Origin: Verrucomicrobiaceae bacterium
GTDB taxonomy: Bacteria; Verrucomicrobiota; Verrucomicrobiia; Verrucomicrobiales; Verrucomicrobiaceae
DNA length: 59,209 nucleotides
Reading direction: 5' to 3'
NCBI GenBank assembly: GCA_027487315.1
Contig: JAIYDW010000121.1
Coordinates: forward strand, 1-59,209
Shown here: positions 6,500-59,209 of the stretch, piece after piece
Layout of the letters: every line of letters starts with the position of its first letter
How positions within the stretch are numbered: the stretch's first letter is position 1
The notes under the pieces: model-generated
Databases searched by the model: none
The model's input: only the letters and a program-made list of their open reading frames with translations
What the model was told of the DNA's origin: nothing
Position numbers and translations under genes: made by a program

Positions 6500-6598
6500 G
6501 GTCAGAGAGTAAAACGGGGACACAACTGTATCTTATCCCAATCGTCTCGTGAAAACCGGACACTTAAATTGGACCGAGATTCCACAATTCAACGCGCC

Positions 6599-19069: not shown

Positions 19070-20341
19070 ATGAACTTTGCCACCAAACGTCACCTCGACC
19101 GCCGCACCTTCCTCCGCGGCACCGGCACCGCTCTCGCATTGCCCTTCCTCGATGCCATGGTGCCCGCCTTCGCGACCCGCGCCCAAGCCGCCGTCGCTCA
19201 GCCTCCCCCAAGATTCCTCGCCATGTGCGCCACCCTCGGCTTCCACACGCCCTTCCTCTTCCCCAAAGAAACCGGAACCGACTACACCCTCACCCCCTAC
19301 CTCGAACCCCTCCAAAACCTCCGCTCCAACTTCTCCGTCATCTCAGGCCTGCAACACGAGGAACAAAACGGCGCCAACGGTCACACCTCCGAAATGACTT
19401 GGCTCACCTCCGCCAAACACCCGGGCCTCGCCGGCTTCAAAAACACCATCTCCATAGACCAACTCATCGCCGACCACATCGGCTCCCAAACCCGCTTCCC
19501 CAGCCTCATCCTAGGCACCGGCAGCGAATCCATGTCCTGGTCCTCCAGCGGCGTCCCCCTCCCCGCTGAATCCTCCCCCTCACGCGCCTTCCAGCAACTC
19601 TTCGTCGATGGCACCCCATCCGAAATCGAAGCCCAAATAAAGAGCCTCACCCGCGGTCGCAGCATCCTCGATACCGTCCTCGGCCAAGCCAAAAAACTCC
19701 ACTCCAACCTCGGCCAACGCGACCAGGAAAAACTCGACGAATACCTCTCCGCTGTTCGCGACCTCGAAGGCCGACTCGTTCAAAACGAAGCCTGGGTCCA
19801 ACGCCCCAAACCCAAAGTCGACGCCAAACCGCCCACCGACATCCAGGCCCGAACCGATGCCATCGGCAAAATGAACCTCATGCAGGATCTCATCGTCCTC
19901 GCCCTCCAAACCGACAGCACCCGCACCATCACCCTCCGGCTCAACGGCATGAACGCCGTCCCGGAAATCGCAGGCGTTAAAAACGACTGGCACAACCTCT
20001 CCCACCACGGCCAGGACGAAGCCAAAATCGAAGAACTCAAAGTCATCGAACTCGCCGAATTCACCGCCTTCGCTGGCTTCCTGACCAAACTCCAAGCCCA
20101 GTCCCTCCTCGATTCCACCTCCGTCCTGTTCGGCTCCAACCTCGGCAACGCCAGTGCCCACCAAACCGCCAACCTCCCTCTCATCCTCGCCGGCGGCGGT
20201 TACAAACATGGCCGACACATCGCCATCAACAAGGACCAGCACGTCTTCTCCAACCTCTTCGTCTCCCTCGCCCAACGCATGGGCGTCGAGACCGACCACT
20301 TCGGCTTCAGCACAAGCACCCTCGATATCAATCAGGCATGA
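19070..20341 (+). CDS. DUF1552 Tat-exported protein
   Basis: A 423-residue DUF1552 protein common in Planctomycetes and Verrucomicrobia. The N-terminus carries a twin-arginine signal, HLDRRTFLRGTGTALALPF, followed by LDAMVPAFA. Family segments include FLAMCATLGFHTPFLFP, GHTSEMTWLTSAKHPG, SIDQLIADHIG, MNLMQDLIVLALQTDSTRTITLRLNGM and, near the end, VLFGSNLGNASAHQTANLPLILAGGGYKHGRHI. The fold resembles alkaline-phosphatase/DUF1501-like exported proteins, but no reaction is known. Its stop overlaps the start of the DUF1592 cytochrome gene (ATGA). This DUF1552-DUF1592 pairing recurs in the phylum, so the two probably act together outside the cytoplasm. Confidence 0.93.
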   Translation: MNFATKRHLDRRTFLRGTGTALALPFLDAMVPAFATRAQAAVAQPPPRFLAMCATLGFHTPFLFPKETGTDYTLTPYLEPLQNLRSNFSVISGLQHEEQNGANGHTSEMTWLTSAKHPGLAGFKNTISIDQLIADHIGSQTRFPSLILGTGSESMSWSSSGVPLPAESSPSRAFQQLFVDGTPSEIEAQIKSLTRGRSILDTVLGQAKKLHSNLGQRDQEKLDEYLSAVRDLEGRLVQNEAWVQRPKPKVDAKPPTDIQARTDAIGKMNLMQDLIVLALQTDSTRTITLRLNGMNAVPEIAGVKNDWHNLSHHGQDEAKIEELKVIELAEFTAFAGFLTKLQAQSLLDSTSVLFGSNLGNASAHQTANLPLILAGGGYKHGRHIAINKDQHVFSNLFVSLAQRMGVETDHFGFSTSTLDINQA

Positions 20342-38057: not shown

Positions 38058-41000
38058 ATGGCCATCCCCCTTCGAACCCTCCTGTTGCTCCTGCTCCTCG
38101 CGCTGCCCTCACTCGCTGAGGCTGGAGTCTCCTTCAACAAGGACATCCGCCCCATCCTAGCGGACGCCTGCTTCCACTGCCACGGCCCCGACCCCGGCAC
38201 CCGCAAAGCCAGTCTCCGACTCGACACCGAAGCCGGCTTCTTCGACCCCGCCAGCGGCCCCACCGTCGTCAAAGGCAAACCCGACGAAAGCCCCCTCTAT
38301 CAACGCCTCCTCAACAAAGACCCCGAGGAAGTCATGCCTCCACCCGAGGCCCATCGACAACTCAAACCCAGCGAAATCGCTCTCCTCAAAACCTGGATCA
38401 CCGAAGGCGCCCCCTGGCAACCCCATTGGAGCTTCATCACTCCCACCCGCCCGGCTTTGCCTCCCGTCAAAAAGAGCGATTGGGTACGCAATCCCATCGA
38501 TGCCTTCATCCTCGCCGGCCTCGAATCCCAAAATCTCTCCCCCGCCCCGGAAGCCGATCCCCGCACCCTCATTCGTCGCGTTTCACTCGACCTAACCGGT
38601 CTCCCTCCCTCTCCAGACCTCCTCACCCGTTACCTTCCCACAACCCCTAACACTCCCCTGTCAGACTCAAGCTACTCCCAACTCATCGACGAACTCCTCC
38701 AAAGCCCTGCCTTCGGCGAACATCGCGCCCGCTACTGGTTAGACGCCGCTCGTTATGCCGACACCCATGGCATGCACTTCGATAACTATCGCGAAATGTG
38801 GCCCTACCGCGATTGGGTCGTCTCCGCCTTCAACAACAACCTCCCTTTCGACCAATTCACCACCGACCAAATCGCTGGAGATCTCCTCCCCAATCCCACC
38901 ACCGAGCAACTCATCGCCACCGGATTCCAACGCTGCAACATCACCACCAATGAAGGTGGAACCATCGACGAAGAAAACCTCGCCCTCTATGCCGCAGACC
39001 GCGTCCAAACCATCGGCTGGGTCTACCTCGGCCTCACCACCAATTGCTCTCAATGCCACGATCACAAATTCGATCCCATCACCCAGCGCGACTACTACTC
39101 CCTCGCCGCCTTTTTCCGCAACACCACCCAAGGCCCAAAGGACGGTAACAGCAAAGACGGCAGAGGCCCCGTCCTCGTCGTCCCCTCCGAGCAAGACAAA
39201 CCCAGATGGACCGCCCTCCCCACCGAAATCGCCGCCGCCACCGCCAAACGCGAGGAGCGCCGCAGCCAAGCCCACGCCGACTTTGACACTTGGCTAGCCA
39301 CCGCCACCCCGGACGCTCTCGACAAACAAATCCCCTCCAAGAACCTCGATCTTCACGTTCCCCTCAACGAAGGCACCGGCAATACCGCCAGCGGCATCTG
39401 CGGCGGCCCCATGACAGCCAAATCCACAGGTCAAGTCTCCTGGACCCCCGATGGCAAACTCGGCCCTGCTCCTGTCATGAACTCCGGTGGCACCTTCGAT
39501 CTCGGTGCAGCAGGCGACTTCGAAAAAGACCAGAAATTCAGCTATGGCGCCTGGATCAAAGCCGGACGCAACGGCGTCTCGGGTGGCATCTTGGCCCGCA
39601 TGGACGAAAAAAACGGCTATCGCGGCTGGGACCTTTTCCAATCCGACAGCGCCCTCAGCGTTCACATCGTCTCCGCTTGGTCAAGCGAAGCCATCAAAGT
39701 CTCTACCCGCAATGCAGTCGTCAAAGCCGGCACCTGGCAGCATGTCTTTGTCACATACGACGGCTCAGGCAAAGCCAAAGGAGTCAAAATCTTCGTCGAT
39801 GGTGCCGATCAAAAACTCAACATCGACATCGACACCCTCAAACCCACCAGTTCCATCCGCACCACCACCGCCCTTCGCGTCGGCCAGCGCAGCCATGGAC
39901 AATACTTCGCTGACGGAGCCGTCCAAGACGTCCGCGTCTATTCTCGCCAAATCACCCCACAAGAAATCGGTCGCATCCGCGATGTCGGCCCGCTTCGCGG
40001 CATCCTCGCCGCCACCGCGTCCAACCGCACTCCCCAGCAACGTGAAGCCCTCTACGGCCATTTCCTCGCCACAATCGACTCCACCTACAAGACCCTCAAT
40101 AAGGCCGTTGTAGCACTCGAAACAGAATCCAAAACCATCCAGGCACGCAGCCCCGTCACCCACGTCCAAGTCGAAAAACCCGACTCTCCACCCATGGCCA
40201 ACGTCCTCATGCGCGGCCAATACGATCAGGTCGGCGAACAAGTCCCCGCCGCCTCCCCTGCCGCCCTGCATCCTCTCAAAAAAGGTGCCCCCGGCAATCG
40301 CCTCGGACTCGCCCAATGGATCACCGACCCCGCCAATCCCCTCACCCCTCGCGTCACCGTCAACCGCTTCTGGCAGGAAGTCTTCGGCCAGGGTCTCGTC
40401 GCCACCGCAGAAGACTTCGGCATCATGGGCACCGCCCCCAGCCACCCCGAATTGCTCGACTGGCTCGCCGTCGAATTCCGCGAATCCGGTTGGGATACCA
40501 AGCAGTTCTTCAAACTCATCGTCTCTTCCGCTACCTATCGCCAAGCCGCCATCGCCACACCGGAAAAACTCGAACTCGACCGCTCCAACACCCTCCTCAG
40601 CCGCGGCCCTCGCTTCCGCATGGACGCCGAAATGATCCGCGACTACGCCCTCGCCGCCAGCGGCACACTTTCCCCCAAAAGAGGTGGCCCAGGCACTCGC
40701 CCCTATCAGCCCGAGAACATCTGGGACGTCGTCGGCCTTCCCGGCGCGGACACCCGCAAATACGTCCAGGATACCGGTGAAAATCTCTACCGCCGCACCC
40801 TCTACAACTTCTGGAAGCGCATGGCCCACTCCCCCAACATGGACATCTTCAACGCCCCCAGCCGCGAAACCTGCGCCGTCCGCCGCGACCGCACCAACAC
40901 CCCTCTCCAAGCCCTCGTCACCCTCAACGACCCGCAATTCGTCGAAGCCGCTCGCCGCTTGTCCGAAACGCTTCTTCAAAACCACCCCGGCAACCCTTCC

Positions 41001-41243
41001 TCCCTCCTTCAAGACCTCGCCGAGCGCGTCCTCGCCCGCCCCTTCCGCTCACCCGAACTCACCATCCTCACCCAATCCTACCAGGACCTCCTCGCTCACT
41101 ACCAAGCCCAACCCGCCGACGCTCAGGCCCTCATCACCGTTGGCGATTCCAAACCTTCGCCTTCTCTTAATCCCTCCCAACTCGCCGCCTGGACCATGGT
41201 CTGCAATCAAGTCATGAACTTGGACGAAGCGCTCAACAAATAG
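38058..41243 (+). CDS. PSD1/planctomycete cytochrome C protein (DUF1549-LamG-DUF1553)
   Basis: A 1061-residue exported protein with signal peptide MAIPLRTLLLLLLLALPSLAEA. Order: planctomycete cytochrome C module with CFHCHGPDPGTRKASLRLD (about 37-55), DUF1549 (WVRNPIDAFILAGLE to NCSQCHDHKFDPITQRDYYSL, about 143-350; a second CxxCH), a LamG/concanavalin-like insert (about 430-635; FDLGAAGDFEKDQKFSYGAW, VTYDGSGKAKGVKIFVDG), and DUF1553 (GNRLGLAQWITDPANPLTPR, about 740-1040). The family is hugely expanded in Planctomycetes and Verrucomicrobia. No DUF1501 partner, its usual neighbour, is adjacent. Function presumed redox and polymer-related; unproven. Confidence 0.94.
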   Translation: MAIPLRTLLLLLLLALPSLAEAGVSFNKDIRPILADACFHCHGPDPGTRKASLRLDTEAGFFDPASGPTVVKGKPDESPLYQRLLNKDPEEVMPPPEAHRQLKPSEIALLKTWITEGAPWQPHWSFITPTRPALPPVKKSDWVRNPIDAFILAGLESQNLSPAPEADPRTLIRRVSLDLTGLPPSPDLLTRYLPTTPNTPLSDSSYSQLIDELLQSPAFGEHRARYWLDAARYADTHGMHFDNYREMWPYRDWVVSAFNNNLPFDQFTTDQIAGDLLPNPTTEQLIATGFQRCNITTNEGGTIDEENLALYAADRVQTIGWVYLGLTTNCSQCHDHKFDPITQRDYYSLAAFFRNTTQGPKDGNSKDGRGPVLVVPSEQDKPRWTALPTEIAAATAKREERRSQAHADFDTWLATATPDALDKQIPSKNLDLHVPLNEGTGNTASGICGGPMTAKSTGQVSWTPDGKLGPAPVMNSGGTFDLGAAGDFEKDQKFSYGAWIKAGRNGVSGGILARMDEKNGYRGWDLFQSDSALSVHIVSAWSSEAIKVSTRNAVVKAGTWQHVFVTYDGSGKAKGVKIFVDGADQKLNIDIDTLKPTSSIRTTTALRVGQRSHGQYFADGAVQDVRVYSRQITPQEIGRIRDVGPLRGILAATASNRTPQQREALYGHFLATIDSTYKTLNKAVVALETESKTIQARSPVTHVQVEKPDSPPMANVLMRGQYDQVGEQVPAASPAALHPLKKGAPGNRLGLAQWITDPANPLTPRVTVNRFWQEVFGQGLVATAEDFGIMGTAPSHPELLDWLAVEFRESGWDTKQFFKLIVSSATYRQAAIATPEKLELDRSNTLLSRGPRFRMDAEMIRDYALAASGTLSPKRGGPGTRPYQPENIWDVVGLPGADTRKYVQDTGENLYRRTLYNFWKRMAHSPNMDIFNAPSRETCAVRRDRTNTPLQALVTLNDPQFVEAARRLSETLLQNHPGNPSSLLQDLAERVLARPFRSPELTILTQSYQDLLAHYQAQPADAQALITVGDSKPSPSLNPSQLAAWTMVCNQVMNLDEALNK

Positions 41244-48066: not shown

Positions 48067-49011
48067 ATGAAGGCACCCCTCATCCTCCTCATCACCTGCC
48101 TCGGCACCCTCGCAGCAGCCGAAGTCACCTCCGAAAAACAAGGCTCAATCCTCCGCTTCACCTCCGCAGGCCAACCCATCTGCGACTACCAAATGGAACC
48201 CGGCGAGGTCCCCGAAGGCGTCGATCTCGTCTTCAAACACGGCGCCCACCTCCACCCCATCTATTCTCCCAGCGGCAAACTCGTCACCGGCAATCACCCC
48301 GAAGACCATCGCTGGCATCGCGGCGTCTGGTTCGCCTGGACCAAAACCGAGTTCGGCACCTCCCATCCCGACTTCTGGAACATGGGCAAGGTCGGCGAAA
48401 AACTCGCCTCCGAAGTCCGCTTCGACCAACTCATCCAGTCCACCCCCAACAGCTTCACCAGCCAGCACTCCTTCCTCGACCACAGCCAATCCCCCGACCA
48501 AAAAGTCCTCACCGAAACCTGGGAAGTCGCCATCTCCCAAAAAAACCTCGATGGCACCCTCACCAACATCATCGATCTCACCAGCACCCAAACCTGCGCC
48601 ACCAACCAACCCCTCAAGCTCCCCACCTACCACTACGGCGGCCTCGGCGTGCGCGGCAACCTCGCCTGGAATCCCGTCGACGCCGTCACCATGCTCACCA
48701 GCGAAGGTCACGACCGCAAATCCGGCGACTCCACCAAAGCCAAATGGGTCCACATCGGCGGCCAAGTCGACGGCACCCCGACCGGCATGGCCATCCTCAT
48801 CCACCCCACCAACTTCCGCTTCCCCCAACCCCTCCGGCTCAACCCCAAAAACCCCCAACTCTGTATCGCCCCCTCCCAAGACGGCGACTGGTCCATCGAA
48901 CCCGGCAAACCCTACCTCTCCAAATACCGCCTCCTCATCTTCGACGGCAAACCCAACGCCCAATGGATCGAAGCCCAATGGACCACCTACGCCACCTCCA
49001 TCGAACCATAA
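48067..49011 (+). CDS. DUF6807 (PmoA-like) secreted protein
   Basis: A 314-residue exported protein; the ATG at 48067 gives MKAPLILLITCLGTLAAAEV, a signal peptide (an in-frame ATG ten codons upstream is also possible). DUF6807/PmoA-like pattern: LVFKHGAHLHPIYSPSGKLV, NHPEDHRWHRGVWFAW, TETWEVAI, HYGGLGVRGN and PTGMAILIHPTNFRFPQPLR. The His-rich HPEDHRWHRG stretch is characteristic. Such proteins are secreted beta-sandwich proteins frequent beside sugar-active genes in Planctomycetes and Verrucomicrobia; activity unknown. A second DUF6807 domain lies 4 kb on, inside the large fusion protein. Confidence 0.87.
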   Translation: MKAPLILLITCLGTLAAAEVTSEKQGSILRFTSAGQPICDYQMEPGEVPEGVDLVFKHGAHLHPIYSPSGKLVTGNHPEDHRWHRGVWFAWTKTEFGTSHPDFWNMGKVGEKLASEVRFDQLIQSTPNSFTSQHSFLDHSQSPDQKVLTETWEVAISQKNLDGTLTNIIDLTSTQTCATNQPLKLPTYHYGGLGVRGNLAWNPVDAVTMLTSEGHDRKSGDSTKAKWVHIGGQVDGTPTGMAILIHPTNFRFPQPLRLNPKNPQLCIAPSQDGDWSIEPGKPYLSKYRLLIFDGKPNAQWIEAQWTTYATSIEP

Positions 49012-49084
49012 AGACGTGATATCCAAACCTCTAAAGCTCGCTCCCTCAGAGTGATCCAGCTCCAACTCACCGTTAAACAAACTC

Positions 49085-50116
49085 ATGATCCCCCTTCCGC
49101 ACTCCCACCGCACCCCCACCCACCTCGCTCATTCCTACCTCCCCTGGTGGCCTCACCTCCTCCTCACCTCGCTGCTCCTCCCGCCCCTCTTCGCCGCCGA
49201 CACGCCGCCCAAGGAACAAAAACCCGCACCCGAGTTCCGAAAATACGAACTGCCCGTCGAACCCGACGAAAACGTCTCCTATGGCCCCCATCGCATGCAG
49301 GTCATCTACTTCTGGCGCGCCAAGTCCGACCAACCCACTCCCCTGCTCGTTTACATCCACGGCGGCGGCTGGCAGGGCGGCGACCGCTCCGTGGCCCGCA
49401 GCATGATCCTCCCAGCTCTCGAGGCCGGCATCTCAGTCGCCTCCGTGGAATACCGCACCATCAAAGACGCCACCGCCGACGGTCTCGTGCCGCCGGTCAA
49501 GGGACCCATGCTCGACTGCGCCCGCGCCCTCCAGTTCTGCCGCAGCAAAGCCAAGGACTGGAACCTCGACAAAACCAAAGTCGCCCTCGCCGGTGGCTCC
49601 GCTGGCGCCTGCACCAGCCTCTGGCTCGCCTTCCACGACGACCTCGCCGACCCTACCAGCCCCGACCCTGTCGCCCGCGAATCCACCCGAGTCCTCTGCG
49701 CCGCCGTCTCCGGTGCACAAACCACGCTCGACCCCCACCAGATGCGCGAGTGGACGCCCAACAGCAAATACGGCTCCCACGCCTTCGGCATCGTGTGGGA
49801 TGCGAAGAAGAAAATCAGCTCCTTCCAGATGTTCTACGACGCCCGCGAACGCCTCCTCCCCTGGATCAAAGAATACTCCCCCTACGAACTCGTCTCCCCC
49901 GGCGACCCACCCGTCGGCCTCTACTACAGCACCCCACCGAACCTCGGCAAAGAAGAAAAAGACCCCACCCACACCGCCAACTTCGGCGTGAAATTCAAAG
50001 AACACTGCGACGCCAACCAAGTCCCCTGCGACCTCATCTACCCCAACGCCCCCAAAATCAAACACCCCACCGACAACGACTACATCAAAGCCCACCTCCG
50101 CCCAGAGCTAAAGTGA
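49085..50116 (+). CDS. Secreted alpha/beta hydrolase (esterase-lipase family)
   Basis: A 343-residue protein with an N-terminal hydrophobic export signal (about 17-38, SYLPWWPHLLLTSLLLPPLFA). Hormone-sensitive-lipase-like motifs: oxyanion LLVYIHGGGWQGGDRSVA, nucleophile elbow ALAGGSAGACTSLWLAF (GGSAG) and a late His in IKHPTDNDY. Carbohydrate esterases deacetylating xylan or pectin share this layout, and the neighbourhood supports such a role, but the substrate is inferred. It lies 73 bases after the DUF6807 gene and 34 before the GH43 gene. Codons are still of the C-rich resident type. Confidence 0.86.
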   Translation: MIPLPHSHRTPTHLAHSYLPWWPHLLLTSLLLPPLFAADTPPKEQKPAPEFRKYELPVEPDENVSYGPHRMQVIYFWRAKSDQPTPLLVYIHGGGWQGGDRSVARSMILPALEAGISVASVEYRTIKDATADGLVPPVKGPMLDCARALQFCRSKAKDWNLDKTKVALAGGSAGACTSLWLAFHDDLADPTSPDPVARESTRVLCAAVSGAQTTLDPHQMREWTPNSKYGSHAFGIVWDAKKKISSFQMFYDARERLLPWIKEYSPYELVSPGDPPVGLYYSTPPNLGKEEKDPTHTANFGVKFKEHCDANQVPCDLIYPNAPKIKHPTDNDYIKAHLRPELK

Positions 50117-50150
50117 CACTCGCCACACCACCACTGCCACCACCTGAACA

Positions 50151-51848
50151 ATGAAACGTTCCCTCGCTGCCCCCCTGTTGCTTGCCTCGATCACGGCTTC
50201 GCTCCTCGCGCCGCTGAGCCCGCTTCACGCCACCGAGCCTACCACCCTACCTGCTTGGGGCGATCAAGGAAATGGCACTTATCGCAATCCCATTTTGTGG
50301 GCGGATTACAATAACCCGTGTGTGTTCAAGACAGGCAACACCTTCTATCTGACCTGCGCCTCGCATCACTTCATGGGCATGCCGTTACTGGCGTCGAAGG
50401 ATTTGGTCAACTGGACGCACGCTGGGCGCATCTACTCGCGACTCGATGGCGTTCATGCGGACTTCACGCTCCCCGGCAAAGCCTGTTCCGCCGGTTCGCA
50501 GGATGGCGAGGTGGGCTTCTTCCGTGGCACGTATTACATGTTCAACTGGAGCACGAAATACTGCGGCTTTGTCTGCAAGGCCGCTGCGCCGGAAGGACCG
50601 TGGAGCGCTCCGGTGCGCCTTTCGGAAAAGATCGTGGGTGACTTCGAAGACCCGTGTCCGTTTTGGGATGATGATGGCAAAGGCTACTTGTTCCTGCTCG
50701 GCAATCCGGGGGCACTGCGGATCTATCGCTTGAACGACACCTTCGATACCATCGTGGACCAAGGCGCGATCTTGATCGATGACATCCCTCCGAAAGGTCC
50801 GCAGGTGTTCAAGCGCAACGGCTTCTACTACATCTCCGTCGCCTCCACCGGCAAGAACAAGGACAAGGCGCAATATGTCTATCGCTCCAAGTCACTCTAC
50901 GGTCCCTACGAGAGCCGGAAACTTTTCCATGCAGGCAAGGCCGACATCAACGCCGCTCAGGGATCGCTCGTCGAAGTCAGTGGCGACCGCTGGGCCTTCC
51001 TCCATCACGACTACAACCTCTTTGCCACCTATGGCCGGCGTCTCTACCTTCAGCCTGCGGGCTGGTCAGCTGACGGCTGGCCGTGGATTGGCGTGGACTC
51101 CGATGGAGATGGCATCGGCGAACCCGTGGGCCTCACCGAGCCCTACGCCAAGCCAGCGCTGCCAGTCCAACCCATCAACGCAGCAGAACCTTCCGATGAT
51201 TTTGAAGCAAGCACGCTCGGTGGCCAATGGGCCTGGAATCACAACCCCGACGACCAGCATTGGTCGCTCACCGCGAGGCCCGGACACCTTCGATTGACAG
51301 CGCGGCATCTGAACACCCAGGGCGGCGTTTCCCAATTTGGCCGCACGAAGGTCAACTATCGCGATGACCATCTTCTCTTCGCCTACAACACGCTCGTCCA
51401 GCGCCTCTACGGAGCCGAGTCAGACAACGTCACGAAGCTCGACACCACGAACATGATCGACGGCCAACGCGCCGGTCTCTGCACGATGATCGACGACTAC
51501 ACCTGGATCGGAGTCGCCAAGGAGGGCGGCACCAAACACATCCGCTTTGCCAAAGGCACCGCCACTTCCGGCCCTGGCGCATTCACCGATGGCCCCGAAC
51601 TCAAGCAAGACGCCATCTGGCTCAAACTCGAACACCGCCACTACAAAGGCACCCTGTTCTACAGCCTCGACGGCGAACACTTCGAGCCGCTCGGCGATCG
51701 CGACTATCCCTACCGCACCGCATGGTATGAGGGCACCAAGGTCGGCCTGTTTTCCTACAACTTGTCATCGGCAGCAGAAGGCGGCCACGCGGATTTCGAT
51801 TTCTTCCACCAACAACACGACGGACCAAAAACAGCCCGCAAAGAATGA
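50151..51848 (+). CDS. GH43-fold secreted protein with altered catalytic residues
   Basis: A 565-residue exported protein (signal SLAAPLLLASITASLLAPLS). N-terminal five-bladed GH43 propeller (about 35-335; GTYRNPILWADYNNPCVF, MPLLASKDLVNWTHAGRIYS, DFEDPCPFWDDDGKGYLFLL, KGPQVFKRNGFYYISVAS) and a C-terminal beta-xylosidase-type concanavalin domain (about 350-550; GGQWAWNHNPDDQHWSLTAR, RAGLCTMIDDYTWIGV). By eye, the general-base position (D in the usual DP motif) is Asn (NNPC) and the general acid (E in EGP) is Lys (KGP); the middle Asp (EDPCPF) remains. It may be a non-catalytic binder or use other residues. Codon use shifts here to more G-ending and AAG codons. Confidence 0.88.
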   Translation: MKRSLAAPLLLASITASLLAPLSPLHATEPTTLPAWGDQGNGTYRNPILWADYNNPCVFKTGNTFYLTCASHHFMGMPLLASKDLVNWTHAGRIYSRLDGVHADFTLPGKACSAGSQDGEVGFFRGTYYMFNWSTKYCGFVCKAAAPEGPWSAPVRLSEKIVGDFEDPCPFWDDDGKGYLFLLGNPGALRIYRLNDTFDTIVDQGAILIDDIPPKGPQVFKRNGFYYISVASTGKNKDKAQYVYRSKSLYGPYESRKLFHAGKADINAAQGSLVEVSGDRWAFLHHDYNLFATYGRRLYLQPAGWSADGWPWIGVDSDGDGIGEPVGLTEPYAKPALPVQPINAAEPSDDFEASTLGGQWAWNHNPDDQHWSLTARPGHLRLTARHLNTQGGVSQFGRTKVNYRDDHLLFAYNTLVQRLYGAESDNVTKLDTTNMIDGQRAGLCTMIDDYTWIGVAKEGGTKHIRFAKGTATSGPGAFTDGPELKQDAIWLKLEHRHYKGTLFYSLDGEHFEPLGDRDYPYRTAWYEGTKVGLFSYNLSSAAEGGHADFDFFHQQHDGPKTARKE

Positions 51849-51877
51849 CGCTGAGCATTCTCCGCTCATCAGTGCGC

Positions 51878-52618
51878 TTACCCCTGATGCCTCATGCGGA
51901 ACTGCTTCGGCGTTAGGCCGATGCGTTTGCGGAAGTGTTGGGTGAAGGCGCTTTGGTCGCAGAAGGCGTGGGCTTGGGCGATGTCGATGACTTTGTCGTT
52001 GGTTTGGATGAGGGCTTCGGCAGCGGACTCGATGCGGATGCGGAGCATGAGTTCATAGGGCGTGACGCCGAGGGCTTGGTGGATCTTGCGATACAGCGTG
52101 CGCTCGGAGAGGCCGCATTCGCGGGCGAGTTCGGCGGTGCTGAGGATGCGGCTGGTGTTCTTCTGGATGTGGCTGACGATGAGCGTGACTTCGCTGTTGG
52201 GCTGATGACGGCTACGACCTTCATCGCGGCGGGTGAGGCCCATGAGGCCGATGATTTTGCCGTTTTTGCCTCGCAGCGGGGCCTTGGTGGTGAGAAACCA
52301 GTTCAGCGTGCGCTGTTCATCATACCAGACTTCGAGGCGATTGATCAACGGTTTGCCCGTGCGGAAGACGAGCGCGTCATCGGCTCGGTAGGCCTTCGCG
52401 GTTTGCTCGGGGAAGAAGTCTTCATCGGGGCGGCCAATGACGTCGGCTTCACTTTCGAGGCCCAGGCGGGTCCACGTTGGCTCGCTGGCCGCGATCAGGC
52501 GGCTCTCACGATCCTTCACAAAGAAGAATACGTTAGGCTGCTGATCAAACATGAGCCGGAATGCCTGCGGATCGGTCATGCTGGCAAAAAAGGCGCTCTG
52601 AATCGAATCGGGAGACAT
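51878..52618 (-). CDS. PAS-AraC family transcriptional regulator
   Basis: A 246-residue regulator: PAS domain about 18-132 (FRLMFDQQPNVFFFVKDRES, GRPDEDFFPEQTAKAYRADD, APLRGKNGKIIGLMGLTRR) and C-terminal AraC double helix-turn-helix about 145-245 (STAELARECGLSERTLYRKI, YELMLRIRIESAAEALI, AHAFCDQSAFTQHFRKRIGL). It is divergent from the large fusion gene with only 70 bases between, and convergent with the GH43 gene. This makes it the likely regulator of the cluster; the ligand seen by the PAS domain is unknown. Its coding strand is C-rich and the plus strand here is G-rich, opposite to the first 50 kb. Confidence 0.93.
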   Translation of the reverse strand: MSPDSIQSAFFASMTDPQAFRLMFDQQPNVFFFVKDRESRLIAASEPTWTRLGLESEADVIGRPDEDFFPEQTAKAYRADDALVFRTGKPLINRLEVWYDEQRTLNWFLTTKAPLRGKNGKIIGLMGLTRRDEGRSRHQPNSEVTLIVSHIQKNTSRILSTAELARECGLSERTLYRKIHQALGVTPYELMLRIRIESAAEALIQTNDKVIDIAQAHAFCDQSAFTQHFRKRIGLTPKQFRMRHQG

Positions 52619-52688
52619 GGCAGGAAGATAACAACTTTTGGCAGATCTAGGCCATGTATTTCGGAATGGAAAGGCGTTTATTCTTTGT
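52619..52688. promoter_or_regulatory. Divergent regulatory spacer of the AraC gene and the fusion gene
   Basis: A 70-base AT-richer spacer shared by two divergent genes, so both promoters must lie here or reach into the coding ends. No exact operator repeat was recognised. Confidence 0.4.
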
Positions 52689-55600
52689 ATGAAAATCCAT
52701 CATTGCTTTTCTGTCCTCACTCTTTGCCTTCTCGCCAACACGGTGGCATCAGCTCATAATACGGTGCTGACGCTGCGTCAGGATGATGCGGCGAACACGA
52801 TCTCGGTCTATCGCGAGAACGACAAGGAGGCGATCCTCACGCAGAATGCGCGGCCGGATTTTCGACCTTACCTTCATCCGATCGTAGCTCCGGATGGCAA
52901 GGGCCTGCTGACGGAATATAGCCCTGGGCATCACAAGCATCAGACGGGGCTCTACTGGGGGCTGAAGCAGGTGAACGGGCGCGACTACTTTCACAATCCT
53001 GGCGCGGGCTTCTGGCGCAAGGTGTCGAGCGCGGTGCTCGTGCCGAAAGGCGAGGTGGTGAAGTGGACGACGGTTTATCAACTGCTCGATGCCGAGGGCA
53101 AGCCGGTGATGAACGAGACGCAGGTCTGGACGATGCGCGATAACGATGGCCGTTACTTCCTGGAGCTTGAATGGAAAGGCGAAGGACTCGTGGATTTGAC
53201 CATGGCCAAGCAGCCTTACGGCGGACTCTTTCTACGCATGCCGTGGAAGCCTGGCATGGAAGGCGGCGTGATGAACAGCGTGCGTCAGGGCAATGGGCGT
53301 GCTGAAGGACAGCGCTCGATCTGGATGGATGTCGGCATGAAAGTGGATGGCCGCGAGGACCAGGCTCACATCGCGATTTTTGATCATCCGAAGAATGTGG
53401 GCTACCCGCAGCATTGGCGTGTGGATGGGCAGATGGGCGTGGGGCCTTGTCGTGCGATTACGGGCGATTGGAAGATTGCCAAGGGCAAGTCCGAGACAGT
53501 GCGGCATCAGTTCTTTGTTTATACGGGCAAGCTCAACGATGTGGAAGTCACAGATGCGTGGAAGGCCTACACCGGCCAGGGTTCAGATGCAGTGATGTGG
53601 GGCATCGCCAAGGCGGCGGGTAAAGAGGCGGCATTTCTCACTGGCGAACAAGCGGTGGCGAAGATGACCGTGCCTGAAGGTTTCGAGGCGAAGCTCGCTG
53701 CGGTCGAGCCGATGATCACACAGCCGATGGCGTTTTGCTGGGATGATCGAGGGCGGCTTTGGGTCGCGGAGAATCGCGATTATGAAGCACGCGGCACCGG
53801 CTTCTCCGCCGATGGCAACAGCCGCATTCTGATTCTCGAAGACACGAATGGCGACGGGAATTTCGACACGCGCCAAGTCTTCCTCGAAGGCATTCCCTTT
53901 CCCGCCGCCATTGCGGTCGGGTTCGACGGACTCTGGCTCGGCGCGCCGCCCAATCTGCTCTTCGTGCCCGACAAGGATCACGATGACAAAGCCGACGGAG
54001 CCTTCGAAGTTCGCCTCACCGGGTGGGGGATTCAGGATCGCCACGAGACCTTAAACAGCTTCAATTGGGGACCCGATGGCTGGCTCTACGGCTGCCAGGG
54101 CTTTGCTACACGCTCGACCGTGGGCAAGCCGGTCGGTGGCGGCAAAATCTTCCACAAGGGCGATTCGTTCCCTGCCGAGATTCCGGTGAAGGATGGTCAA
54201 TACATCGACGGCGGCGTTTGGCGTTATCATCCCACGAAGGACCGCTTCGAAGTCGTCGCGCACGGCTTCAGCAATCCGTGGGGGATGGACTTCGATGACC
54301 ACGGCCAGATCTTCATCACTGCCTGCGTGATCCCGCATCTCTGGCATGTGATCCCCGGCGGCATCTATCACCGCCAGGGCGGCAGCCACATCAATCCTTA
54401 CGTCTTCGACGACATCAAGACCATCGCCGATCATCGCCATCGCTCCGCGCATGGCGGTGCGCGCATCTACCTCGCGGATGAGTTCCCGAAGGAATACCGC
54501 GACCGCATCCTCATGGCGAACATCCACGAGCATAATGTGATCACCGACATCCTCAAGCCCAGCGGCTCGGGCTTCATCGGTCATCATGGCGATGAACCGC
54601 TCTTCGCCAATGACAATGCGTGGGTAGGTTTCAGCATGGAGATCGGACCCGACGGCGCGGCTTATGTGCTCGATTGGCATGACACCGAAATCTGTGGCGC
54701 TGCCGTCTACGACAAAGAAACCGGCCGCATCTACCGCCTCGCGCCGAAGGGCCTGCCAGGAAAGACCGGCATCAATCTCGCCGCGCAGACCGATCTCGAA
54801 CTCGTCGGCCTGCTGACGCATCGCAACGATTGGTATAGCCGCCGTGCTCGCGTGCTGCTCCAGCAACGCGCTGCGGCTGGTCAACTCGATGCCGCAGTGC
54901 CTGGGAAGCTGTGGGAACTCTTTGTGCAATCCAAGACCTCCGCGCATCAACTCCGCGCTCTCTGGGCTCTGCACATCACGCAGAATATCCCAGCGGATCG
55001 TTTGCTGCCGTTGCTCGATCATGCTGAGCCGTATGTTCGCGGCTGGGCCATCCAGTTGCTGGGCGAAGATCGTGCTTACAGTCCGGCAGCTTTGGCAAAG
55101 CTCACTGCGATGGCGGAGAAGGACAGCTCGCCCATCGTGCGGCTTTACCTCGCTGCGGCGCTTCAGCGCATGAACGTGGCCGAGCGCTGGCCCATCGCGC
55201 AGAACCTCGTCGCTCATGCCGAGGACGCTACGGATCATAACTTGCCGAAGATGCTTTGGTTTGGCATCGAGCCGATGGTCGAAGCCGACACTACGCGAGC
55301 GATGGCACTCGCCACGCAAAGTAAGATCCCGCTGCTCGCGCCATACATCGCCCGCCGCGCCATCGCTGCCAAACAGCTCGAGCCGATAGCCGCCACACTG
55401 CTGAGCAACACCGATCTCGCCCTGCGTCTCCAGCTTCTCGAAGGCGTGCGTGATGGACTCAAATCGCTGGGCCGCAATGTGGTCACGAAGCCGAAGAACT
55501 GGGACGAAGCCTTTGCCGCGCTCGATGCCACTAAGGATGCAAAATTGAGCGACTTCACTGCGCAGATAGGTCAGCTTTTCGGCGATGCCAAAGCCGCCGA

Positions 55601-56489
55601 AGCACAGCTTGCCGTGCTCAAGGACACAGCGGCACCTATTGAGCGCCGCCAACAAATCCTGACGGCCTTTGCCCGCGATGCGTATGTCGCCGCGCTGCCC
55701 GTGGTGCTGTCCCTGCTCGATGAACCCGCCGTGCGCCGTGATGCCATTCGCGCGCTGTCTTCGTTCGATGCTCCGCAGATCGCGCCGACCTTGATCCAGC
55801 GCTATGCCAAACTTTCCCCTGTTGAGAAAGCTGAGGTCGTCGTCACACTCTCCGCGCGCCGCAGCACCGCGAGCGCCCTAGTCGCTGAGTTGAAGAAGAA
55901 CACCCTTCCGAAGACCGATGTCACCGCCTTTGACGCCCGCCAACTCTACCGCGTGCTCGGGCCATCGTTCGTCGAGTTCTGGGGTCCCATCACCCAGCTC
56001 GCCAGTGATAAGCAGGCTGAGATGGCAAAATACAAAGCCATGCTCACCGATGCCGTGATTGCCAAAGCCAATACCAGTAAGGGTCGCGCCATCTTCGAGC
56101 GCACCTGCATGGGCTGCCACATGCTCTACGGCGCAGGCGGCATTGTCGGCCCCGATCTCACCGGCTCCAATCGCGCCAACCTCGACTACATCCTCGCCCA
56201 GATCATCAACCCCAGCGAGGTCATGCAGGAAAGCTATCAGCTCGTCATCGTCACCACTCGCGATGGCCGCACCCTCTCCGGCACGGTCGCCGCCGAAGAC
56301 AACCAGCAGCTCACGCTCCGCCTTGTCGGCCAGGACAGTGTCGTCACCAAATCCGAAATCCTCTCCCGCGAGAAATCCCCCATCTCCATGATGCCCGAGG
56401 GCTTGCTGAAAACCCTCAAAGACGACGAAGTCCGCGACCTCATCGCGTATCTGCGCACCACCGCACAGGTGCCGCTGCCGAAGCCTTGA
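52689..56489 (+). CDS. DUF6807 + PVC dehydrogenase beta-propeller + HEAT + cytochrome c fusion
   Basis: A 1266-residue exported protein from the ATG at 52689 (MKIHHCFSVLTLCLLANTVASA). Order: DUF6807 (about 25-300; HPIVAPDGKGLLTEYSPGHH, KHQTGLYWGLKQVNGRDYFH), sorbosone-dehydrogenase-like propeller (about 325-690; FCWDDRGRLWVAENRDYEAR, ILILEDTNGDGNFDTRQVF, NSFNWGPDGWLYGCQGF), HEAT-like repeats (about 710-1085), and a C-terminal cytochrome c with CMGCHMLYGAGGIVGPDLTG (heme Cys at about 1140) and a late Met (ISMMPEGLL). By family knowledge it oxidises an extracellular sugar and passes electrons to heme. It ends QVPLPKP. Divergent from the PAS-AraC gene. Confidence 0.92.
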   Translation: MKIHHCFSVLTLCLLANTVASAHNTVLTLRQDDAANTISVYRENDKEAILTQNARPDFRPYLHPIVAPDGKGLLTEYSPGHHKHQTGLYWGLKQVNGRDYFHNPGAGFWRKVSSAVLVPKGEVVKWTTVYQLLDAEGKPVMNETQVWTMRDNDGRYFLELEWKGEGLVDLTMAKQPYGGLFLRMPWKPGMEGGVMNSVRQGNGRAEGQRSIWMDVGMKVDGREDQAHIAIFDHPKNVGYPQHWRVDGQMGVGPCRAITGDWKIAKGKSETVRHQFFVYTGKLNDVEVTDAWKAYTGQGSDAVMWGIAKAAGKEAAFLTGEQAVAKMTVPEGFEAKLAAVEPMITQPMAFCWDDRGRLWVAENRDYEARGTGFSADGNSRILILEDTNGDGNFDTRQVFLEGIPFPAAIAVGFDGLWLGAPPNLLFVPDKDHDDKADGAFEVRLTGWGIQDRHETLNSFNWGPDGWLYGCQGFATRSTVGKPVGGGKIFHKGDSFPAEIPVKDGQYIDGGVWRYHPTKDRFEVVAHGFSNPWGMDFDDHGQIFITACVIPHLWHVIPGGIYHRQGGSHINPYVFDDIKTIADHRHRSAHGGARIYLADEFPKEYRDRILMANIHEHNVITDILKPSGSGFIGHHGDEPLFANDNAWVGFSMEIGPDGAAYVLDWHDTEICGAAVYDKETGRIYRLAPKGLPGKTGINLAAQTDLELVGLLTHRNDWYSRRARVLLQQRAAAGQLDAAVPGKLWELFVQSKTSAHQLRALWALHITQNIPADRLLPLLDHAEPYVRGWAIQLLGEDRAYSPAALAKLTAMAEKDSSPIVRLYLAAALQRMNVAERWPIAQNLVAHAEDATDHNLPKMLWFGIEPMVEADTTRAMALATQSKIPLLAPYIARRAIAAKQLEPIAATLLSNTDLALRLQLLEGVRDGLKSLGRNVVTKPKNWDEAFAALDATKDAKLSDFTAQIGQLFGDAKAAEAQLAVLKDTAAPIERRQQILTAFARDAYVAALPVVLSLLDEPAVRRDAIRALSSFDAPQIAPTLIQRYAKLSPVEKAEVVVTLSARRSTASALVAELKKNTLPKTDVTAFDARQLYRVLGPSFVEFWGPITQLASDKQAEMAKYKAMLTDAVIAKANTSKGRAIFERTCMGCHMLYGAGGIVGPDLTGSNRANLDYILAQIINPSEVMQESYQLVIVTTRDGRTLSGTVAAEDNQQLTLRLVGQDSVVTKSEILSREKSPISMMPEGLLKTLKDDEVRDLIAYLRTTAQVPLPKP

Positions 56490-56708
56490 TGGCAGTGAAC
56501 GCCTGCTTCAGGATCGCATCAATCAAGGGCAGCCTCTGGCTCAAACCCACTAACGCCCTCTTTCAATGATCAACCGTCGTCCCTTCCTCCGCCAAACCGC
56601 ACGTGAAGGCTGGAAGGTGTGAGGCTGACTCACGCTTGTTGCACGCACTCTAGGCGCGTCGAAGCCCTACATCCTCACCCATACAGAATCTCCTGAAACC
56701 TCACTCAC
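56490..56708 (+). other. Spacer before the ThuA gene
   Basis: A 219-base spacer holding a truncated Tat-leader reading frame at 56566 (listed separately) and no other gene. Confidence 0.5.
56566..56622 (+). pseudogene. Remnant of a Tat-signal gene start
   Basis: ATG at 56566 opens MINRRPFLRQTAREGWKV, then TGA. The RRPFLRQ twin-arginine start is typical of exported oxidoreductases and sulfatases in these bacteria, but no hydrophobic core follows. The same frame then meets another stop and reads LVARTLGASKPYILTHTES. It looks like the 5' end of a lost gene. Confidence 0.45.
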
Positions 56709-57644
56709 ATGAAGCATTCACTCTGCCCTTATTTATTCAAACTCTCGATGGTCTTCGGACTGGCGCTCGTTCAGCTCTCAGCCCATGCCGCTGACAAAAA
56801 GAACATCGTGCTCATTGCTGGAAAGCAGAGCCACGGTCCCGGAGCTCATGAACACAACGCGGGCGTCCAGTTGTTCGCGAAATGTCTCCGAGCCGCAGTG
56901 CCGGATTTGGTAGATGTGAAGGTGCATTTAAATGCGGAATGGCCTGCGGAAGAAGAGATCAAATCCGCTGACACCATTTTGATTTATGCGGATGGGTTTA
57001 CCATGCATCCGGCGTTGCAGGGGGATCACCTTCAGCAGCTCGCGGCCGAGATGAAGCGTGGCTGTGGTTTTATGGCGTTGCACTGGGCCACTGAGGTGCC
57101 CAAGAACAAGGGCGAGGCTGAGTTCCTTGATTGGATGGGCGGATACTGCGACCCCATCTGGAGTGTGAATCCGCACTGGCTGGCAAACTTCACCACCCTG
57201 CCCCAGCACCCGATCACCAGCGGTGTGCATCCCTTTTCAACCACAGACGAGTGGTATTTCCACATGCGTTTCCGCAAGGGTATGGCGTCGGTGAAGCCGA
57301 TCTTAACCGCCGTGCCACCGGACTCCACCATGAGCCGTCCTGATGGAGTGCGTTCGGGCAATCCCGATGTCCGCAAGGATGTGGCGAACAAGGTCCCCCA
57401 ACACGTCGCGTGGGCAGCAGAGCGGCCCGGCGGCGGCCGTGGCTTTGGCTTCACAGGTGGCCATTTTCACAAGGGCTGGGCCAACAACGATCAACGGAAG
57501 CTGGTGCTCAACGCGATCCTTTGGACAGCGAAAGCAACCGTTCCCGCCAATGGCGTGGAGTCCGTGGTCACCGAGGAGGATTTGAAACAGAACCTCGACC
57601 CCAAACCCGCTCCAAAAGCCCAGGTTCCACTGCCGAAGCCGTGA
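56709..57644 (+). CDS. ThuA-domain secreted protein
   Basis: A 311-residue exported protein (signal LFKLSMVFGLALVQLSAHA). ThuA/trehalose-utilisation-like glutamine-amidotransferase fold: NIVLIAGKQSHGPGAHEHNA, ILIYADGFTMHPALQGDHLQ, GCGFMALHWATEVPK, HPITSGVHPF, TTDEWYFHMRF and GRGFGFTGGHFHKGWANND. The GAHEHN His cluster is common in the secreted subgroup beside dehydrogenases. The reaction is unknown; some ThuA proteins are linked to disaccharide oxidation products. It ends AQVPLPKP, like the upstream fusion protein. 11 bases precede the next gene, so they are likely co-transcribed. Confidence 0.9.
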   Translation: MKHSLCPYLFKLSMVFGLALVQLSAHAADKKNIVLIAGKQSHGPGAHEHNAGVQLFAKCLRAAVPDLVDVKVHLNAEWPAEEEIKSADTILIYADGFTMHPALQGDHLQQLAAEMKRGCGFMALHWATEVPKNKGEAEFLDWMGGYCDPIWSVNPHWLANFTTLPQHPITSGVHPFSTTDEWYFHMRFRKGMASVKPILTAVPPDSTMSRPDGVRSGNPDVRKDVANKVPQHVAWAAERPGGGRGFGFTGGHFHKGWANNDQRKLVLNAILWTAKATVPANGVESVVTEEDLKQNLDPKPAPKAQVPLPKP

Positions 57645-57655
57645 GATCGCACGCG

Positions 57656-59209
57656 ATGAAAGACTCACTCTGCCTTCGCCTGCTGACGGCGCTTGTCGTT
57701 TTCAGCAATCTTGTCCGCGCCGAAGAACCACCGCTACGTGTGGCGATCACGCCGGATTCGCTGCGCTTTGCGTGGCCGCCTAGCGAGGGAAAGACGGAGA
57801 TTCGCGAGTTACCGCTGCATACCTCGGCGACCGGAGAAGGCAGCGTTTTGTGGAGCGGCGAGGGTGCGGAGGCAACGGTGCCTCGCTTCGATGGCAAACG
57901 CGACCGGTTGTTCGCGAAGTTTGAACGTCGCTCGGGTGGCAAGACGCTTGGTTCGCCGCAGCATGTCACGGATTTCTCCGCGCTCCCGCAGCGGAAGAAC
58001 TCCCTCGGCTCGCTCGCAAACAAGAAAGGGATCGCCTGCCTGCTCGACGTGGAAGATGGCAAGGCGCTCGGCTTCGGGCAGTCGAACCAGAACATCAACA
58101 TCGGCTGGCTGATCGACTGGCAGAGCGTGGAACCCAAGCTCAGCTTCGAGTTTGAGGGTAGAAAGATCGGGCTTCGTCCGGATGCGGTCGCGGCGCTTGA
58201 TCGCGACTTGCAGGCGCTCCACGCGGCGAAGATGCGCGTGACGGGCATCCTCGGGAATTACGTTCCGAAGACCCTGTCACGGACATCGCCGCTCGTGCAT
58301 CCCCTCACTGATCCGGCGACGGTTCCAGAGGGCCCGGCGGCGTTCAATACGGCGACGGAGGAAGGCGTCTTCTTCTACCGTGCGATCCTCCATTGGCTGG
58401 TGGATCGCTACACGCGCGAGGACGCGAAGTTTGGCCAGATCGCCGGGCTCGTGATCGGCAACGAAGTGCAGAACCACTGGGGCTGGTATCACATGGGCGC
58501 GGTCGAGCCGGAGGTGTTGTTGCGCGAATACAGCGTTGCGCTGCGCATCGCCGATCTGGCCACGCGCAGTGTGCATGCGGACTTCCCGATCTTTATCTCG
58601 CTGGACCATCACTGGACGCTTACCGCGACGACGGATCGCACACACGACTTCACCGGCCTGGAGGTTCTGGAAGGAGTCCACGAGCGTGCGAGACGTGAAG
58701 GCGATTTCCCATGGAACCTCGCGCATCATCCGTATCCAGAGAACCTCAGACAGCCAAGCTTTTGGAATGACCGTTCCGCGCCCTTGCGGTTCGATGCGCC
58801 GCGGATCACGTTTCACAATCTCGAGGTGCTGCCCGCCTTCCTGCGCCAGCCGCGCTTCCTTTTCGAGGGTAAGCCACGCCGGATCGTGCTGACCGAACAA
58901 GGCTTTGACTGCCCGCCCGGCCCCGACGGTGAACTCGCGCAAGCCGCCGCTTTCGCGCTCGCGTGGAAAAAGGTGCAGGCGCTGCCAGGCATCGAGTCCT
59001 TTCTTTATCATCGCCACGTCGATCATCCGAACGAAGGCGGTCTCCTCTTCGGCATCCGCGAGCACGATGGCAGTGCGAACGTCAACGGCGCTGGCCGCGC
59101 GCGGAAGCTATGGGATGTCGTGCAAAAGGCCGGCACGCCGGAGGAAGAGGCCGCGTTCGCCTTTGCGCTGCCCATCGTCGGGCGCAAGGACTGGAGTGAT
59201 GTCGTGGCG
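57656..59209 (+). CDS. DUF5722 protein, C-terminus outside window
   Basis: An exported protein with signal LCLRLLTALVVFSNLVRA; 518 codons are open to the window edge. The core matches DUF5722, a TIM-barrel glycosidase-like family: KNSLGSLANKKGIACLLD, FGQIAGLVIGNEVQNHWGWY (NEV..H, with the Glu in a place typical of glycosidase acid/base residues), FISLDHHWT, FPWNLAHHPYPENL and RIVLTEQGFDCPPGPDGELA (a second candidate Glu). No activity is established to my knowledge. It follows ThuA closely, and the G-rich codons match the 50-59 kb cluster. Confidence 0.85.
   Translation, partial: MKDSLCLRLLTALVVFSNLVRAEEPPLRVAITPDSLRFAWPPSEGKTEIRELPLHTSATGEGSVLWSGEGAEATVPRFDGKRDRLFAKFERRSGGKTLGSPQHVTDFSALPQRKNSLGSLANKKGIACLLDVEDGKALGFGQSNQNINIGWLIDWQSVEPKLSFEFEGRKIGLRPDAVAALDRDLQALHAAKMRVTGILGNYVPKTLSRTSPLVHPLTDPATVPEGPAAFNTATEEGVFFYRAILHWLVDRYTREDAKFGQIAGLVIGNEVQNHWGWYHMGAVEPEVLLREYSVALRIADLATRSVHADFPIFISLDHHWTLTATTDRTHDFTGLEVLEGVHERARREGDFPWNLAHHPYPENLRQPSFWNDRSAPLRFDAPRITFHNLEVLPAFLRQPRFLFEGKPRRIVLTEQGFDCPPGPDGELAQAAAFALAWKKVQALPGIESFLYHRHVDHPNEGGLLFGIREHDGSANVNGAGRARKLWDVVQKAGTPEEEAAFAFALPIVGRKDWSDVVA

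Follow-up and report, generated by a model that had tools for sequence, protein, structure and literature searches.

A set of genes of freshwater Verrucomicrobia for the extracytoplasmic oxidation of a complex glycan, probably exchanged laterally together with its own regulator, is proposed here to occupy the right part of a contig from a member of the Verrucomicrobiaceae. The contig was analyzed in its entirety (G000:C235, 59,209 nt; hereafter the window), and its right end falls inside one of the genes concerned, the one for a DUF5722 protein. That everything right of ~50.1 kb was acquired laterally as a part of such a set is, in our estimate, slightly better supported than not (probability of roughly 0.55); the glycan is probably sulfated. 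The core of the set consists of a PAS-AraC regulator, the promoter diverging from it, a gene (FUS) for an exported fusion of a DUF6807 domain, a β-propeller, HEAT repeats, and cytochrome c, and the genes for a ThuA-domain and a DUF5722 protein.

Conserved unit and probable lateral exchange

Five of the last seven genes of the window look like a recently acquired segment, judging from their composition and from the identity of their orthologs. Strand skew in the host genome is very strong (median |GC skew| of 0.33 in 2-kb windows over a dozen of its own stretches). In the window, GC skew is ~−0.4 through the first two of the seven genes, DUF6807s and that of the putative esterase abH, and jumps to ~0 at 50.1 kb while G+C remains unchanged; this break divides the genes into two on the left and five on the right. 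At third codon positions, the skew of DUF6807s (−0.80) and the esterase gene (−0.65) resembles that of host genes (−0.65 to −0.86 for the neighbors of the segment); right of the break it is −0.35 (GH43-fold protein), +0.43 (PAS-AraC), −0.15 (FUS), −0.01 (ThuA), and +0.01 (DUF5722). Comparable values were obtained for FUS, ThuA, DUF5722, and PAS-AraC of other genomes. Extreme skew (~±0.3 to 0.5) covers most of the host genome (window 1–50100; L234–L246; G and L denote genomes and loci) and is also found in the same-genus genome G003, interrupted by low-skew stretches that resemble acquired islands. In the stretches read from relatives such as G030, skew is slight. The features of the segment and its left flank are as follows:

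48067..49011, + strand: DUF6807s, stand-alone exported DUF6807 protein (PF14100, 1.6e-54)
49085..50116, + strand: abH, BD-FAE-like/abhydrolase_3 alpha/beta hydrolase (PF20434, 1.1e-19)
50117..50150, no strand: approximate left border of the low-skew segment (GC skew from ~−0.4 to ~0)
50151..51848, + strand: GH43-fold protein with C-terminal β-sandwich (PF04616, 1.1e-41; PF17851 (GH43_C2), 5.2e-33)
51878..52618, − strand: PAS-AraC regulator, divergent from FUS (PF08448 (PAS_4) and PF12833 (HTH_18))
52484..52733, + strand: regulator-promoter-signal-peptide cassette (5′ part of PAS-AraC, intergenic promoter, first ~15 codons of FUS)
52636..52654, + strand: core of a conserved element, TTTTGGCAGATCTAGGCCA, probable operator/promoter site
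52689..56489, + strand: FUS (signal peptide, DUF6807, six-blade propeller (DUF7133/TIGR02604), HEAT, cytochrome c (TIGR02603))
56566..56600, + strand: scar of a deleted Gfo/Idh/MocA oxidoreductase gene, ~11 first codons left (blastn)
56709..57644, + strand: ThuA-domain exported protein (PF06283, 1.1e-18)
57656..59209, + strand: DUF5722 exported protein, 3′ end missing at the contig end (PF18989, 1.9e-97)

The domains were directly observed: all seven genes are open reading frames, and each matched, in Pfam/TIGR profile searches, the family that an initial annotation of the window had named for it. FUS starts at the ATG at 52689, its product comprising 1266 residues. As that annotation had also held, genes for SusC/SusD, ABC, or PTS transporters are absent from the Pfam families found in 48–59 kb, so that the SusC/SusD pair by which a classical polysaccharide utilization locus is recognized is missing from the seven genes. 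Scans for sigma-70 promoters and terminators returned no more matches than expected by chance. DUF6807 and DUF5722 are families without assigned function; in a literature search, DUF6807 was mentioned only in passing and DUF5722 not at all.

The identities of FUS orthologs were compared with those of CobA-HemD, which served as the housekeeping reference protein. FUS is 94% identical in G085 and 92% in G082 (another family), where CobA-HemD is only 61% identical; therefore, the block appears to have been exchanged recently. In G030, the corresponding values are 97% (FUS) and 79% (CobA-HemD), and in the same-genus G003 they are 96% and 99%. Divergence of FUS from the host's copy at fourfold-degenerate sites amounts to 0.14 (G030), 0.18 (G003), 0.27 (G085), and 0.62 (G130). 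The history of FUS therefore does not follow that of its hosts.

What recurs in other genomes is PAS-AraC divergent from FUS, followed by an optional Gfo/Idh/MocA gene, ThuA, and DUF5722. The regulator diverging from FUS, with both ThuA and DUF5722 downstream, was found in G003 (across two contigs), G030, and G041, and parts of the unit are present in G035, G037, G028, G085, and others. PAS-AraC orthologs are 87–96% identical and diverge from FUS at many loci; ThuA is linked to FUS in G003, G030, G035, G037, G041, and L146, and DUF5722 in nine loci. Adjacency of FUS and DUF5722 persists where DUF5722 identity has fallen to 59–61% (L140, L155, and L172). The partners also occur in other combinations: G021, G091, and G124 have a ThuA-HEAT fusion gene next to a separate gene for a propeller-cytochrome protein, and in G079, DUF6807 is encoded by a neighboring gene of its own. 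A 35% identical PAS-AraC homolog diverges from the ThuA-HEAT fusion gene of G021 (L080:5368–8315), which suggests an older link between the regulator and ThuA.

In G003, G030, G031, and G041, FUS is followed by the Gfo/Idh/MocA gene, with ThuA behind it unless the contig ends there. When the FUS-ThuA gap of the window was compared with these four by blastn, a 35-nt scar was detected in which ~11 first codons of Gfo/Idh/MocA are joined to the sequence downstream of that gene; relative to G041, ~1.24 kb has been lost. The gene has thus been deleted in the window and retained in the relatives.

The initial annotation had read all seven genes in order, as a single locus; this reading is not supported, and the seven do not form one conserved locus. 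Orthologs of DUF6807s (71–79% identical) lie at unrelated places in other genomes, those of the esterase (89–92%) occur only in G028, G030, and G085, inside other islands, and those of the GH43-fold protein (90–93%) in G003, G028, G029, and G030, near FUS in G028 only. DUF6807s and the esterase gene are neighbors outside the conserved unit, and the sharing of the esterase and GH43 genes is sporadic. The annotation was to fall if its genes were never co-located elsewhere and not co-regulated; this largely describes the three leftmost genes but not PAS-AraC, FUS, ThuA, and DUF5722.

For the DUF6807 domain of FUS, a scan of named genomes returned 493 relatives; the top 80 belong to Verrucomicrobiota, Planctomycetota, and Bacteroidota, and nearly all of these with enough sequence have kept the ~1270-residue fusion. 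The DUF6807-propeller-HEAT-cytochrome family is also carried by the cultured Bacteroidota Larkinella and Runella, and FUS of the Cytophagales has neither ThuA nor DUF5722 as neighbor. In Verrucomicrobiota, FUS often neighbors sulfatases, a second propeller gene, and Gfo/Idh/MocA genes; Pfam-confirmed contents of the relatives' islands comprise sulfatases, PSCyt/PSD, SASA esterases, FAD oxidoreductase, GH28, AP_endonuc_2, and Gfo/Idh/MocA. Defense-like genes (TOTE primase-helicase, ABC-3C CTD6 with an AAA partner, and AlbA/AAA) were noticed within or next to islands in G041, G035, and G030 (L065:1076–3877, L067:1958–5362, and L111:4277–8764). A plasmid search with FUS returned distant relatives only. 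On a plasmid of Ketogulonicigenium vulgare (L248:2449–5199), the gene for a DUF7133-HEAT dehydrogenase adjoins one for a separate c-type cytochrome; the pair is the split counterpart of FUS in a sugar oxidizer.

FUS and the accompanying proteins

FUS matched TIGR02604 with 317 bits (cutoff 122) and TIGR02603 with 127 bits (cutoff 68), and its CxxCH motif (residues 1140–1144) is invariant. The AlphaFold model of residues 1–690 was usable (mean confidence score, pLDDT, of 78.9), part of it being of low confidence. In this model, residues 317–690 align to 6h7t, 3a9g, 6jt5, 2g8s, and 1c9u (Z of 24–27, root-mean-square deviation of 2.8–3.8 over 272–313 residues), the best structural matches of the propeller being AA12, aldose sugar dehydrogenase, and sGDH. 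HHalign of the FUS alignment against the GSDH alignment gave 95% probability. In sGDH, His144 acts as the base, and Arg228 and Asn229 are located at the cofactor pyrroloquinoline quinone (PQQ; PMC6881810, PMC6881789). FUS His452, corresponding to His144, is invariant in 40/40 sequences; Asn529, corresponding to Asn229, is likewise invariant. The spacing from His452 to a polar residue at +4 is as in GSDH homologs, with one residue inserted before GPDG. Foldseek matches to GH36/GH38 proteins may reflect the DUF6807 sandwich and were not used as evidence. Sequence searches of the PDB with DUF6807, ThuA, and DUF5722 returned nothing useful.

A paralog in the window (3332–6523, − strand, 1063 aa) consists of a GDSL lipase, a DUF7133 propeller, HEAT, and a C-terminal plastocyanin/azurin-like copper (cupredoxin) domain, and is the copper version of the propeller-cytochrome proteins. 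Because it has a cupredoxin in place of cytochrome c, it supports a redox role for FUS. By modeled fold and by fusion to an electron carrier, FUS resembles a sugar dehydrogenase, yet one defining residue fails (see below). With the modeled propeller closest to PQQ sugar dehydrogenases, the theme of an exported, heme-linked carbohydrate oxidation, as initially annotated, is plausible.

The glycan-trimming step assigned in the same annotation to the GH43-fold protein is doubtful from its sequence, because both catalytic carboxylates are replaced: compared with 5joz, 6mly, and 6ms3, the base Asp is Asn and the acid Glu is Lys. The fold itself stood (PF04616/PF17851). These substitutions are kept in the four orthologs of 90–93% identity, and the Lys also in a 58% identical homolog. 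In DUF5722, E270 (GNE) and E414 (TEQG) are invariant in six aligned sequences; read by motif alone and from this small number, the two-Glu signature is glycosidase-like, of the clan GH-A type. The DUF5722 model, built with the same number of sequences, had a pLDDT of 42.5, too low for a TIM-barrel fold to be judged from it. The alpha/beta hydrolase abH is probably a carbohydrate esterase.

Taken together, FUS would be an exported quinohemoprotein-like dehydrogenase, the six-blade propeller of which would oxidize a sugar or oligosaccharide held with the help of the DUF6807 domain, and the electrons would pass to its own cytochrome c and on to the respiratory chain. ThuA, with its Gfo/Idh/MocA partner where present, may handle the oxidized sugar, and DUF5722 may be a glycosidase-like partner. 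In the relatives, sulfatases with the same promoter would strip sulfate.

The regulator-promoter cassette

The element core TTTTGGCAGATCTAGGCCA lies in the PAS-AraC/FUS intergenic region, 34 nt before the FUS start; the window contains this one copy. The element was found in 32/287 loci. Counted genome-wide in a 30-nt version with up to three mismatches allowed, it occurs at 40 sites in 20/387 genomes of the order, which belong to four families; the reversed pattern gave 0 sites. Among 38 sites examined, the gene that follows is FUS at 12, DUF5722 at nine, a sulfatase (of various kinds) at 13, and another propeller gene at one; the other three are decayed or unresolved. A gene set linked to PAS-AraC, as initially annotated, is hence borne out by a promoter conserved before FUS, DUF5722, and, in relatives, sulfatases.

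The shared sequence is not confined to the element. It forms a cassette of ~250 bp comprising PAS-AraC or its 5′ stub, the promoter, and the first ~15 codons of the target gene. Copies before FUS, DUF5722, and sulfatases are identical to one another at 77–82% in the 5′ part of PAS-AraC, 80–87% in the promoter, and 65–76% in the first 15 codons; homology ends at codon ~15, identity being ~48% beyond. Upstream of the element stands either the full PAS-AraC gene or, often, the same stub of ~135 nt, which in different families is found ahead of different genes. In G028, one cassette stands by itself, and of FUS only the initial codons remain. Several copies share one contig and strand in G085, G035, and G030, and others are located on separate contigs. 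Several cassettes (L289, L309–L312, and L314) are bordered upstream of the element by another shared sequence (ATGAGATGATCCTGAACGGGCGGCG...), which looks like the 3′ end of a different gene. Recombinase genes were not noticed beside the cassette sites, although no systematic search was made. In G030, Gfo/Idh/MocA was considered as a direct target and rejected: the cassette frame is broken, and the gene starts ~270 nt further on.

Reading the element as an RNA leader was likewise rejected, since its predicted secondary structure did not exceed that of shuffled sequences. Because the element strand does not fold, a DNA operator/promoter is likely. A homologous promoter before non-homologous genes, the mark of a mobile promoter, is present here. 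We tentatively propose, at somewhat less than even odds, that a self-contained regulatory piece, made up of the PAS-AraC gene or its 135-nt stub, the divergent promoter, the start codon, and the codons for the export signal, moves both inside genomes and from one genome to another, joins unrelated enzyme genes in frame, and so builds a new regulon of exported enzymes around a heme-linked sugar dehydrogenase. Copied with its ~15 codons, it would confer common control and an export signal.

Alternative readings and relation to known systems

A number of points weigh against the exchangeable glycan-oxidation set. The substrate is guessed from the relatives' sulfatases, none of which is in the window; that PAS-AraC binds the element we infer; and FUS occurs without ThuA or DUF5722 in most of the distant relatives, notably in Bacteroidota. 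The pair Arg228-Asn229 of sGDH is Arg-Asn in 20/20 GSDH homologs but Ser528-Asn529 in 49/49 FUS sequences, and given Ser for Arg, PQQ chemistry may not run as in sGDH. PqqC had no match in 59 genomes of the family, but the control genomes gave none either. Some PQQ users import PQQ. It is consistent with these findings that FUS is not a sugar dehydrogenase and that its fold serves binding, lactone hydrolysis, or lyase chemistry, the cytochrome being sensory or structural; HHIP, SMP30, and lactonases, the next structural group, share the fold at Z ~21–22.6. This we consider unlikely, as sugar dehydrogenases rank slightly above that group, His and Asn are invariant, and the fused electron carrier, be it the cytochrome c of FUS or the cupredoxin of the paralog, argues for redox chemistry.

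The abrupt change in composition, on a contig that ends inside DUF5722, could also be explained by a chimeric assembly join with the right part stemming from another organism. With no ambiguous bases, unchanged G+C, similar low-skew stretches on other contigs of the same genome (L243, L239, and L234), and the same genes or element in G003 and G014 of the same genus, such a join is very improbable. Only a little more credible is chance juxtaposition in a hypervariable island, with FUS, ThuA, and DUF5722 merely hitchhiking together; FUS neighborhoods do vary widely, FUS often stands alone, and some islands contain defense genes, but FUS-DUF5722 adjacency recurs at ~60% DUF5722 identity, ThuA-HEAT fusions adjoin propeller genes, and FUS, DUF5722, and sulfatases share one upstream promoter element. 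More can be said for the view that the promoter repeat arose through ordinary local duplication and gene conversion among adjacent operons and that no regulatory piece spread as such: several copies per contig lie on one strand, and truncated PAS-AraC copies resemble decayed duplicates. We nevertheless hold it to be somewhat unlikely, as the targets are non-homologous with identity dropping past codon 15, the stub precedes different genes in different families, and copies also lie on separate contigs.

If the glycan-oxidation set is what these genes represent, one element-linked, exchangeable group would give DUF6807 and DUF5722 testable functions, and the presence of the FUS family in cultured Larkinella and Runella makes its chemistry accessible in isolates. 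The cassette would show how sulfatase-rich, SusCD-free degraders put newly acquired enzymes under common control; it hints at a rewiring of sugar-degrading genes in such bacteria and provides a sequence tag for finding more members of the regulon.

With quinoprotein sugar dehydrogenases (sGDH, aldose sugar dehydrogenase, and CAZy AA12), FUS shares the propeller fold and the catalytic His and Asn, and like CcPDH of Coprinopsis (PMC6881789, PMC4332668), it couples the propeller to a heme domain. It differs from them in having Ser for Arg228 of sGDH, in its c-type heme, located C-terminally behind HEAT repeats, and in its N-terminal DUF6807 domain; its PQQ binding is putative. Both models that define the PVC-type heme-binding CxxCH proteins (TIGR02604 and TIGR02603) are matched far above cutoff; to these proteins, FUS adds the DUF6807 domain, and it forms a conserved subfamily of ~1270 aa of its own in three phyla. 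Genes for PSCyt cytochromes near sulfatases have been described in freshwater Verrucomicrobia, with a suggested role in carbohydrate breakdown (He et al, 2017; PMC5615132). Cytochrome genes beside sulfatases and the link to carbohydrate degradation are common to both, whereas the FUS set is built from different protein families and no PSCyt gene is present in 48–59 kb. PSCyt genes do occur in the relatives' islands and elsewhere in the window, which encodes a pair of DUF1552 and PSCyt3/PSD proteins at 19070–22737 and a PSCyt1/PSCyt2/PSD1 protein with Laminin_G_3 at 38058–41243.

Trehalose utilization by thuAB combines ThuA with the Gfo/Idh/MocA protein ThuB. Relatives of the window likewise have ThuA beside a Gfo/Idh/MocA gene; here, however, the proteins are exported and accompanied by a propeller-cytochrome, and the Gfo/Idh/MocA gene of the window has been deleted. 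The spreading of promoters before unrelated genes (mobile promoters, horizontal regulatory transfer) is known in general, and the cassette resembles it in that one promoter sequence stands before non-homologous genes. It differs in also including the divergent regulator, as a full gene or a 5′ stub, together with ~15 initial target codons that hold the export signal; to our knowledge, this is an unusual form of promoter spreading. A cytochrome-carbohydrate theme has thus been proposed before; what the present locus adds to it is a protein family, an exchangeable core, and a promoter cassette.

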